From Vandammella animalimorsus (GTDB lineage: Bacteria; Pseudomonadota; Gammaproteobacteria; Burkholderiales; Burkholderiaceae_C): a stretch of DNA of 64,000 bases. The position numbers and the translations under genes were made by a program. Under the pieces are notes generated by a model that saw nothing but the letters and a program-made list of their open reading frames with translations, was not told where the DNA came from and searched no databases. Location of the stretch: positions 1 through 64,000 of the forward strand of contig NZ_NSJF01000006.1 in assembly GCF_002285285.1 (NCBI RefSeq), read 5' to 3'. Of this stretch, positions 1 through 15,231 are shown one piece after another (the first letter of the stretch is position 1; each line of letters opens with the position of its first letter).

Positions 1-126
1 GCGTGCTGCGTGCTGCGTGCTGCGTGCTGCGTGCTGCGTGCTGCGTGCTGCGTGCTGCGTGCTGCGTGCTGCGTGCTGCGTGCTGCGTGCTGCGTGCTGC
101 GTGCTGCGTGCTGCGTGCTGCGTGCT
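1..126. repeat. heptanucleotide tandem repeat, 18 copies
   Basis: Eighteen perfect copies of the 7-base unit GCGTGCT run from the left edge of the window, so the array may continue outside it. Because 7 is not a multiple of 3, any reading frame through it repeats every 21 bases as Leu-Arg-Ala-Ala-Cys-Cys-Val. I see no gene here. Such arrays gain and lose units by replication slippage. Confidence 0.97.
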
Positions 127-10518: not shown

Positions 10519-12820
<2,302 letters not shown>

Positions 12821-12828
12821 GCATCGCC

Positions 12829-13425
12829 ATGCTGCTCTCGGGTCTGTGCTGCGCGCTTTACCTCACGGCGCTGCTGCTGTTTGCCGCCCTGCACCGACTG
12901 GATCGGTCTGTGCATTGGCTGCATGACCCGGTCAGCCAGTACATCAGAGGCCCATACGCCACGCTGTTTCGCTGGTACGGCCACATTGGCACGGCCGCGG
13001 CGCTGCTGCTGACCATCGAGCTGTTTCACGCCAGCGCGCCCATTTTTGCGCCCAAGGTTGTGATCAGCATGGCTTTGCTGGTCGTGCTGCGCGTCGGCGT
13101 GGTGCTGATTCCCACCGATCCCAAACACGCGCCTGCCACGGCCAAGGGGCGATTGCATCTGGCCCTGGCCATCGCCACATTCGCGGCGACCTACACGGCC
13201 ATTGCCAGCGCCACGCCAGCGTTTGCGCTGGATGCTGCAACGCCTCTCGTCCTGAGCCTGATTGCCATGCGCTACCTGGCGCTGGCCTCGCTCAGCGCCG
13301 TGGTTCTCACTATGCTGCCCGGCCTGAAAGCGTTTTTCGGCCTGGCCGAGCGGGCCTTTCTTGCCAGCACACAGCTCTGGTTTCTTGGGTGCAGCCTGTG
13401 GTTTACCGTAACACGCATGGGCTGA
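12829..13425 (+). CDS. DUF998-type integral membrane protein
   Basis: This 198-aa protein has about six predicted membrane segments, including LLSGLCCALYLTALLLFAAL at the start and others near residues 50-70, 75-95, 110-130, 140-160 and 170-190. A charged loop (LIPTDPKHAPATAKGRLHL) resembles the DUF998 family, whose function is unknown. It starts 8 bases after tgt and is likely co-transcribed with it. It ends 37 bases before a strong bidirectional terminator shared with the convergent baeRF gene. Confidence 0.7.
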   Translation: MLLSGLCCALYLTALLLFAALHRLDRSVHWLHDPVSQYIRGPYATLFRWYGHIGTAAALLLTIELFHASAPIFAPKVVISMALLVVLRVGVVLIPTDPKHAPATAKGRLHLALAIATFAATYTAIASATPAFALDAATPLVLSLIAMRYLALASLSAVVLTMLPGLKAFFGLAERAFLASTQLWFLGCSLWFTVTRMG

Positions 13426-13462
13426 GTGGCACAGCACGCAAAAAAACTGGCTGGCAATCAAA

Positions 13463-13518
13463 ATGCCGTCTGAATGAAAAACCCCGCAACAAGCTGCGGG
13501 GTTTTTCATTCAGACGGC
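13463..13518. terminator. bidirectional terminator made of inverted Neisseria-type DNA uptake sequences
   Basis: Two perfect 24-base arms (13465-13488 and 13495-13518) enclose a 6-base loop. The arms contain AAAAACCCCGCA and TGCGGGGTTTTT, which give a rho-independent terminator in both directions for the convergent DUF998 and baeRF genes. The outer ends are GCCGTCTGAA on each strand. On the plus strand the word is the extended ATGCCGTCTGAA at 13463-13474, identical to the 12-base uptake sequence of Neisseria species. In Neisseria such inverted pairs commonly form terminators. Confidence 0.93.
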
Positions 13519-13540
13519 TTCAAATCAGAAATCAGCCCAA

Positions 13541-14641
13541 TCAGTACCGAGTGATCACGGCCATGCCGAAATCCGGGTTGACGCTGGCCATGCTCTCGTT
13601 ATTCACGAAGCGGACACGGCCGTTATTGGCAAGCACTTTCTCGATGATTTCATCGACGATGTCCTCATAGGCGTTGTTGTCCTTGGAGGGGGCAGCCAAT
13701 TGCGCCGACTCCAACAGCTTGAGCTGGCGGCCATCCTCGCTGACTTCTGCGGGGATGCTCAAATCTTCCTCCACGACCAACACCTCAACACGGCCATCGA
13801 TCGCTGCCTGCCAGACTTCATTCAGGCCGCCGACGAACAGATGGTTGCTCTTGGCGCTTTCCAGCTCGGTGAAGATTTTCTGGCGCTCTTCATCCAGGGC
13901 TTCCTTGATTTGCGGCCAGATTTTCTTGGCCAGCTGATGCGCATCCTCATCGTGGTGGCCGCTGTGGATGTAGAGCATGACGTCATCGCTGTTGCGCGCG
14001 CCGTCACGGAAATGGCCGATATTGCGATCCACACCCACGACCACAACCGGAGCAGGCGTGTCTTTCTGGGCTGCTGCAATGGCTTCCCCGACCTCGCGCA
14101 TGCTGTCGGTCACGATTTGATCGCGCACATGGCTGATGTCCTGGCTGGGGTTGGCGTTTGCCACGCTGCCCTTCAAGCTGAACGGGAAGCCATAATCATT
14201 GATCTCGTTGAGATAATCCTTGCGGCCAATAAAAAGGCGTGTGCCGTTCTCGCTCAAAACCACCAGCAGATAAAGCGGGCTGCGATTCATGGCATACACC
14301 AGATCGCGGGTCAGGAAGTTATCCTCAATGCTCACCCGCTCAGGCAGACGGAAAGGCAGCTTGAATGACTGACTGTATTCAGCACTAGCAAAAATCACCA
14401 GTCCATCCAGATTGTGCTCATGATCGACCTCGTCTGCCATGCGCCGAATAGCGTCTGCAATGTCCATGGTTTCGCGCTTGCCAAATTGAGACTCCAATTG
14501 TTCGATGGCTTCGCTCACCAAGTTTTTCAAACGAATGGGATCCTTGTCGTTATCGGGCGAGGTGCGATAAGTAGGCAGCGTGATAGTCACGCTGGGGTCG
14601 GATCTCTTGGACTGGATCTCTTTGATAGTATTCAGGTTCAC
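13541..14641 (-). CDS. baeRF-family protein, Balon-like ribosome hibernation factor candidate
   Basis: This 366-aa protein looks like the bacterial archaeo-eukaryotic release-factor-1-related (baeRF) family. One member, Balon, binds the ribosomal A site in starved or cold-shocked cells. Supporting segments are VTITLPTYRTSPDNDKDPIRLKNL near residue 17, LYLLVVLSENGTRLFIG near 123, PAPVVVVGVDRNIGHF near 195 and a C-terminal domain with VEVLVVEEDLSIP. I see no GGQ, so peptide release is not expected. The start is a GTG at 14641 with Shine-Dalgarno GAAAGGAA 5 bases upstream. Its GC is visibly lower than its neighbours: three sampled 60-base lines had 37, 33 and 29 G+C. It ends at a Neisseria-type uptake-sequence terminator, so transfer from a Neisseriaceae donor is likely. 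The family is fairly sure and the hibernation role is inferred. Confidence 0.72.
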   Translation of the reverse strand: MNLNTIKEIQSKRSDPSVTITLPTYRTSPDNDKDPIRLKNLVSEAIEQLESQFGKRETMDIADAIRRMADEVDHEHNLDGLVIFASAEYSQSFKLPFRLPERVSIEDNFLTRDLVYAMNRSPLYLLVVLSENGTRLFIGRKDYLNEINDYGFPFSLKGSVANANPSQDISHVRDQIVTDSMREVGEAIAAAQKDTPAPVVVVGVDRNIGHFRDGARNSDDVMLYIHSGHHDEDAHQLAKKIWPQIKEALDEERQKIFTELESAKSNHLFVGGLNEVWQAAIDGRVEVLVVEEDLSIPAEVSEDGRQLKLLESAQLAAPSKDNNAYEDIVDEIIEKVLANNGRVRFVNNESMASVNPDFGMAVITRY

Positions 14642-15231
14642 AAAATTCCTTTCGGGATCAATAATGAAAGCAAATGCTCAAATGGATTACAAAGGACATC
14701 CACCTAAAAAAATGGTGAGAAATAAAAAATGAAATCCACTTATGCTTTGCAGCATAGCAGAAAAAATAAAATTCGTCAAGAAAGCCCTTTAAAGGCTAAC
14801 CAATGCATTCATTGGTATATGAGAAATCAATGCCCCATACCCCAATATCTGCAAATCAAATTTTCGGCAGGGAGAGGGGGATTTCCTCAAAATCCTTTTT
14901 CGACCCACACGAATCGCAGCCCATTGAGTTTTTGCTTATTTTTTACACAGCCTTTGTAGAACCCGCCATGCCACGCCATTGCTTCCTCACACGCTCCCCT
15001 CTGCGTGGCCTTGCGGCAAAAGCCTCTGGCTTTGGCATCCCAGGCATGTGGCCGAGACGGCGTGCGGTGAGGCTTTGCAGCGCCGCAACACACAATCGCA
15101 ACACGCTCTAACCCTTTTGGGTTCCGCCCAACGTATAAAGGGATGTAGCCTGACTGCGTGCGCCACTCTTGTGCAGCCCTGTTTGGCTGCAGGATTTGTT
15201 ATCCCCCCTTCTTGATGGAAAGGAGCCTCCC
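14642..15231. other. AT-rich intergenic gap with no recognised gene
   Basis: This 590-base gap separates the baeRF gene from the vWA lipoprotein gene. From about 14650 to 14960 it is strikingly AT-rich against the surrounding sequence and should contain the baeRF promoter. Short open frames exist here but have no ribosome-binding site or recognisable protein. From about 15068 to 15111 it resembles the right-hand part of the 164-bp repeat family (GAGGCTTTGCAG, then CACGCTCTAA), at low confidence. Confidence 0.6.

Follow-up and report, generated by a model that had tools for sequence, protein, structure and literature searches.

Why should a chromosome of the Vandammella group carry, at the end of one gene, an inverted pair of the DNA uptake sequence (DUS) of Neisseria? 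In the Neisseriaceae, inverted DUS pairs are established as rho-independent terminators (PMC3630211, PMC2397512), and so is the occurrence of 'peregrine' DUS, which belong to a different dialect, in related genomes (PMC3630211), the same source describing an A at position +4 as the feature of eikDUS and a T inserted after +3 as that of wadDUS. DUS of alien dialects have been used for tracing donors in Neisseriaceae genomes (PMC7371117), and horizontally acquired regions of Neisseria are described as carrying few DUS (PMC2397512). The pair considered here lies in a stretch of 64,000 nucleotides, referred to below as the window, and the original prediction, made from the letters alone, was that a Neisseriaceae donor had brought the gene and its terminator together. 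In this paper, we have computed the sequences and folds at the locus, the copy number of the DUS in the host, the distribution of the adjoining gene in the genomes sampled, its composition and the family membership of its product. The features of the locus are as follows.

11648..12820, + strand: coding sequence which we take, from its letters, to be tgt (queuine tRNA-ribosyltransferase); its 3' side is variable in the genus
12829..13425, + strand: DUF998 gene between tgt and the hairpin (PF06197, 34.6 bits against a cut-off of 30)
13463..13474, + strand: ATGCCGTCTGAA, exact 12-base AT-type DUS, left outer arm of the hairpin
13465..13518, no strand assigned: perfect 24-bp hairpin with a loop of 6, 13465-13488 pairing with 13495-13518
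13475..13508, no strand assigned: inner hairpin resembling a bidirectional terminator, TGAAAAACCCCGCA/TGCGGGGTTTTTCA, each strand having a T-run (from the fold)
13509..13518, - strand: GCCGTCTGAA, exact 10-base DUS core, inverted, right outer arm
13541..14641, - strand: gene of a predicted 366-aa ribosome hibernation factor of the Balon type (baeRF_family3), with affinity to Neisseriaceae (PF18845, NF052287, 8rd8)
14751..14779, - strand: candidate promoter of sigma70 type for the Balon gene, TTGACG-17-TATGCT, by consensus match only

The DUS pair and its hairpin

The 12-base sequence and the inverted 10-base core are both exact at the places first reported for them, and the window holds no further exact copy of the core, as had also been claimed. 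The right-hand core is preceded by AA instead of AT, so the full 12-mer is confined to the left copy. The region 13450-13530 folds at -47 kcal/mol (z -9.4; shuffled sequences -16.9, sd 3.2, with none of 200 as low), and its 24-bp stem is the longest perfect hairpin with a loop of 2-10 in 264 kb, comprising the window and ten 20-kb stretches of contig C6 (200 kb), where 23 such hairpins of at least 11 bp were found and the runner-up measures 17 bp.

The inner 34 bases form by themselves a 14-bp stem of -22.7 kcal/mol on either strand, with an A-run at 13477-13481, which is the T-run of the - strand (13481-13477), and a T-run at 13502-13506. Directly after the outer stem come TTCAAATC on the + strand and ATTTTGAT on the - strand, and a T-run after the DUS stem is absent. 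As both T-runs of five sit within the 24-bp stem, in its inner part, the functional terminator is probably the 14-bp hairpin, with the DUS arms lying outside; the 24-bp terminator stem first proposed is thus upheld in its perfect pairing, but not as the likely functional unit. As the T-run precedes the far DUS arm on either strand, RNA polymerase would presumably halt without making that arm. The design of A-run, GC stem and T-run recurs in other hairpins of the genome, e.g. ATGAAAAAAGGGCC...GGCCCTTTTTTCAT in L042, and a second inner hairpin of the exact ACCCCGC type was not found in the 264 kb scanned.

The arrangement resembles the DUS-pair terminators of the Neisseriaceae in that the exact core stands inverted at a gene end, as the stem of a hairpin. 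It differs from them in that the genome is without DUS, in that the T-runs lie inside the stem rather than after it, and in that 34 bases separate the two cores, compared with at most 21 in pairs counted as one composite DUS in PMC2397512.

Copy number of the DUS in the host

The host assembly (3,081,705 bases, 99.6% complete) contains five exact DUS cores, namely the pair in the window and three single copies, and the reversed-pattern control also gives five. Each of ten genomes of the genus (G000 included) has between 1 and 6. An AT-type DUS should be greatly over-represented in a genome that uses it. In contrast to the counts above, there are 3583 cores in G589 and 329 in the genome of a Neisseria sp. 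MAG (locus L008). We infer that G589 belongs to the Neisseriaceae, because it is DUS-rich and because L018, a locus of its family, shares its printed flanks with L008. As the host count equals the control, the host is no DUS user; a genome-wide count, proposed at the outset as a check in which hundreds of copies would have told against transfer, gave a figure far from that. The idea that the Vandammella host itself uses the sequence for uptake, for which the pair in the window is the one point that speaks, deserves practically no credence in the face of these counts, and was rejected. The copy in the window matches the 10- and 12-base sequences exactly, and descent or likeness makes it a DUS, though not one that works in this host.

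Identity of the convergent gene

The 366-aa protein matches PF18845 (baeRF_family3) in Pfam, and scores 387.2 bits against a cut-off of 330 for NF052287 (AOC03_06830 family ribosome hibernation factor) in NCBIfam, residues 6-366 covering positions 1-361 of the 361 in the profile, i.e. its full length. Its sole match among solved structures at E <0.01 is 8rd8_B (with 8rdv and 8rdw), at 5.2e-36 over residues 5-366, an entry labelled 'Methyl-accepting chemotaxis protein' in the PDB. We take chain B of 8rd8 to be the Balon of Psychrobacter urativorans, which is consistent with the NCBIfam name; the likeness to that protein consists of the full-length match and of a score above the AOC03_06830 equivalog cut-off. 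Inspection by eye found neither the GGQ nor the NIKS string in the 366 residues, and Balon is described as a hibernation factor that binds the A site and is without these two motifs (PMC10901736). On this evidence from sequence, the gene is better named a Balon-type ribosome hibernation factor than baeRF, and its product most likely shields idle ribosomes during starvation. Unlike in the Balon system, the gene here is not beside raiA, and lies between the hairpin on the tgt side and a vWA gene.

For the candidate promoter, TTGACA-17-TATGCT can be read at the corresponding place of the sister locus L007 in an alignment, and the region holds 2 promoter-like matches against 1.1 in shuffles. Membership of the Balon and DUF998 proteins in a defence system was also considered, and dropped when neither gave a PADLOC match at E up to 0.01.

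Distribution, composition and kinship of the Balon gene

With the protein as query, the Balon gene was found in 3 of the 10 genomes of the genus (among the other seven, G008 is 80% and G009 77% complete) and in the same three carriers among 299 genomes of the family, the other 296 giving no match. In the Neisseriaceae, the family of G589, it occurs in 9 of 83 genomes at 62-77% identity. A sample of the order gave four matches in 399 genomes, i.e. its own, G589 (67%) and two of another family (28-31%), and a sample of the class, at a stricter E of 1e-30, gave only its own in 369; the genus, family, order and class samples overlap in part. The carriers named by a scan that detects close relatives only are Allofranklinella schreckenbergeri (L006, 98%), Vandammella animalimorsus (L007, 96%) and the Neisseria sp. 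MAG (L008, 69%), the first two forming a trio with the window. Outside this trio, the proteins nearest to that of the window are those of the Neisseriaceae loci L015 (77%), L016 (77%) and L017 (73%), and the samples searched yielded no close kin other than Neisseriaceae. The gene is therefore missing from most close relatives and present in the putative donor family, the pattern by which horizontal transfer is recognised.

The composition of the gene sets it apart as well. Its GC content is 54.8% (GC3 69.8%), about 10 points below the 64.6% of the window, as had been noticed at first sight, compared with 64.8% (GC3 87.2%) for tgt, 67.9% (GC3 85.6%) for the vWA gene and 63.6% (GC3 77.8%) for the DUF998 gene; the stretch from the Balon start to the vWA gene has 47.5%. 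In L006 and L007 the gene has 54.2% and 57.9%, between flanks of 66.4% and 67.8%. Distribution and composition are two independent signs that mark the gene as alien, and its transfer from the Neisseriaceae, the part of the original prediction that concerned the gene, is well supported by these sequence data. Wide spread of baeRF genes by lateral transfer has been described (Burroughs and Aravind, PMC6514570). A phage or plasmid as carrier was considered and discarded: phage records gave no match to Balon, and the 12 matching plasmid records are all below 60% identity.

A tree of the protein had been proposed as a check, on which a firm place among Comamonadaceae would have spoken against a Neisseriaceae source. 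In a tree of 17 proteins (L018 was omitted as a repeat of L008), the three carriers form one group (100/100) among the Neisseriaceae copies, but the surrounding forks are weak and the nesting is unproven; the remaining five relatives included share 26-34% identity with the protein of the window. The trio is nested within the Neisseriaceae in both best trees, on weak forks, and constraining the nine Neisseriaceae rows to one clade gives a tree that the test does not reject (p-AU 0.234 with five outgroups, 0.0965 when L024 and L025 are left out). This test is limited by L024 being a 283-residue piece and by outgroups whose identity to the proteins of the Neisseriaceae and the trio is no more than 25-35%. 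Within the trio, the window goes with L007 at weak support (77/49; 74/72). As the Neisseriaceae clade is not rejected, the tree is compatible with a third party as donor to both groups. Transfer in the opposite direction, from the Vandammella lineage or such a third party into the Neisseriaceae, would also suit this unrejected clade and the patchy occurrence of the gene in the Neisseriaceae; we regard it as very improbable, since the GC content of the gene falls below that of the surrounding DNA in all three carriers, and since the copies diverge down to 58% identity within the Neisseriaceae and are 96-98% identical within the trio.

The site 3' of tgt

On the + strand the order is tgt, DUF998 and the hairpin, followed by the Balon gene, which converges on the - strand. 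tgt was found in 9 of the 10 genomes of the genus, and the roughly 1.5 kb that follow it contain Balon in three of these loci and other DNA in six. One of the latter is that of G008, the nearest non-carrier by tgt (98% in protein; genome 80% complete). The DNA 3' of tgt also varies among the six non-Balon loci themselves (the site being 12821-13540 in the window, compared with loci L026-L034; the first 260 bases were read, unaligned).

Collinearity between the window and L007 extends to either side of the site, and L006 resembles the window over tgt and Balon, not beyond either. At 2482-3570 of L006, the A. schreckenbergeri locus, the frame upstream of Balon is unlike that in the window and in V. 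animalimorsus. This locus has thus been rearranged, while tgt, terminator and Balon stayed together. At third positions of tgt, the window differs from L006 by 0.033 and from L007 by 0.077, and a TAA stop codon of tgt is confined, within the trio, to the window's species.

Downstream of tgt, the DUF998 gene also occurs only in the window's species, being not found in the other eight loci of the genus; among 250 genomes of the family it was found in two, its own and G237, a relative at 41%. A Neisseriaceae origin of this gene was rejected, as it was found in none of 83 Neisseriaceae genomes (a search without a positive control, though one of the same kind found the 41% relative in the family) and had no match among plasmid records.

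Terminators of the carriers and of the Neisseriaceae copies

In each of the three carriers, an inverted pair of GCCGYCTGA stands just past the Balon stop. The sister species L006 and L007 have a shorter hairpin, GGCCGCCTGA / TCAGGCGGCC, whose arms GCCGCCTGA are one transition off the DUS core, having a C at position +5, and are separated by two bases; a T-run lies towards Balon. Within the trio, the exact DUS and the long nested hairpin belong to the window's species only; its right arm, together with the 22-base spacer before the Balon stop, can be aligned to the sequence of the sisters, with differences.

The terminator of the sisters might be an ordinary GC-rich hairpin, which a paired change from C-G to T-A made to mimic a DUS in one species by chance, the gene then being Neisserial and the terminator not. 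That GCCGCCTGA is a single transition from the core is in keeping with this, and so is the finding that 10 of 150 genomes of the family contain inverted GCCGYCTGA pairs at gaps of 2-32 (reversed control 4 of 150), with T-A in both arms in G042 and a mixed pair in G115. That search missed the window's own pair, whose 9-base arms are 36 bases apart, and its sample did not include G006, a short-hairpin carrier; one of the ten, G007, has its pair at exactly the Balon-end site. Pairs being so rare in the family, one at the Balon end in all three carriers is not expected by chance: at ~0.07 pairs per genome, and assuming some 3000 genes, about 2 in 100,000 gene ends would have one. Moreover, the site was picked from its sequence before any search of the gene's kinship. 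We therefore consider a chance origin improbable, and it was largely set aside on core counts and pair rarity.

For terminators in NEISSERIACEAE, an inverted DUS pair of some dialect lies at most 220 bases from the stop in 6 of the 9 Neisseriaceae copies. AGGCCGTCTGAA pairs are found downstream of Balon in L012 and L020, and likewise in L021 with widely spaced arms; the pair of L019 has one full and one shortened arm, that of L017 is AGGCTACCTGAA, presumably of the eik type, and L008 and L018 have a pair ~130 bases past the stop which we take to be of the wad type. In L015, L016 and L022, other sequences and no DUS pair stand within 220 bases of the stop. Of 83 Neisseriaceae genomes, 49 contain GCCGYCTGAA pairs at gaps of 10-40, up to 703 per genome, and the genomes of the two closest copies, G720 and G733, have just 7 and 10. 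We count both these low numbers and the lack of a DUS pair at the closest copies (L015/L016, 77%) against a transfer of gene and DUS-type terminator as one unit.

In the Neisseriaceae, the gene is patchy and the DNA downstream of it differs between L012 and L015-L022. This patchiness and variety suggest that Balon is mobile within the Neisseriaceae too.

One transfer or two

By tgt the window is nearer to L006, yet L006 and L007 share the non-DUS form of the terminator. Barring an exchange of tgt, that form is thus likelier to go back to the ancestor of the trio, and the exact DUS form seems to have arisen by later change or renewed import, and not by plain retention. This leaves room for two events, in which Balon would have come first, with or without a DUS-like terminator, and the exact AT-type DUS hairpin later and only in the window's species, as a second Neisseriaceae piece or a converted terminator, near or with the insertion of DUF998. 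The exact DUS, the inner hairpin, DUF998 and the TAA stop of tgt being limited within the trio to that species, and the place of the window beside L006 with its short form, speak for such a history; in addition, a perfect hairpin nested between DUS arms is found in the Neisseriaceae (G702:C1:445889-445943, 23-bp stem). On the other hand, the right arm and its 22-base spacer still align to those of the sisters, as change in place predicts, and DUF998 is a gene with no match in the 83 Neisseriaceae and a GC content near that of the window. We hold two events to be unlikely, although they deserve some weight.

A bolder form of the idea, that Neisseriaceae terminators entered this DUS-less lineage repeatedly at one spot, first with Balon and then as a fresh AT-DUS hairpin in one species, seems to us doubtful. 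If true, Neisseriaceae DNA would land recurrently at the 3' side of tgt, the niche being shared, and DUS terminators would be small exchangeable modules outside the DUS world.

We consider it likely that one complete transcription unit, consisting of promoter, Balon gene and DUS-type terminator, came from a Neisseriaceae donor and became established 3' of tgt in the ancestor of a cluster of three species in the Vandammella group. From the data above we infer the direction of the transfer, its being a single founding event, the descent of the terminator and the function of the protein. The inverted DUS pair would then be a terminator habit of the donor that was brought along, and in a new host lacking a DUS repertoire its arms probably play no part in uptake. 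In the sisters, T-A may have changed to C-G at +5 after the transfer; in the window's species, there would have been either a return to T-A with growth of the inner hairpin or a fresh import. The exact DUS form may accordingly have been inherited, in altered shape, from the first transfer or have been imported a second time. The original prediction of gene and terminator arriving together is thus supported in part: it stands for the gene, and the exact terminator may have come with it or later. The core of the hairpin may now act as a native-style bidirectional terminator between DUF998 and Balon, two genes that run towards each other, and the DUS arms would enclose it like a clamp. The predicted Balon-type protein would enter the A site of idle ribosomes under starvation.

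A niche shared by donor and recipient is plausible, as the source of V. animalimorsus is given as animal saliva (PMC11278545), and the DUS signal would be superfluous for entry into a recipient without DUS specificity.

Relation to known systems and significance

Exchange of genes between Haemophilus and Neisseria, e.g. of sodC, is the classic parallel described in PMC3088665, and is alike in that a chromosomal gene crossed between genera; it differs in that here the gene would have passed from the Neisseriaceae to a Comamonadaceae group, leaving the donor's watermark in a non-DUS host. As in the donor tracing of PMC7371117, an alien DUS points to a former host, but that work, as it describes its aim, seeks islands in Neisseriaceae genomes, and the present case is a single gene outside that family. 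Our literature searches found no paper joining DUS, Comamonadaceae and horizontal gene transfer, and none joining Balon, Neisseria, ribosome hibernation and horizontal gene transfer, which does not prove that none exists. Since DUS terminators, tracing by alien DUS, intergeneric exchange and transfer of baeRF genes are all known, the case is a new and clear instance of these.

If our preferred reading of a single imported unit is right, the locus records gene flow out of the Neisseriaceae into another family, marked by the watermark of the donor and placed on the branch of the recipients, and it suggests that a stress-survival factor such as Balon can spread by such transfer. In this one case, the cue of a DUS pair led to a gene of Neisseriaceae kinship, and a screen may be suggested in which rare inverted DUS pairs are sought in genomes that do not use DUS and the adjoining gene is then inspected.
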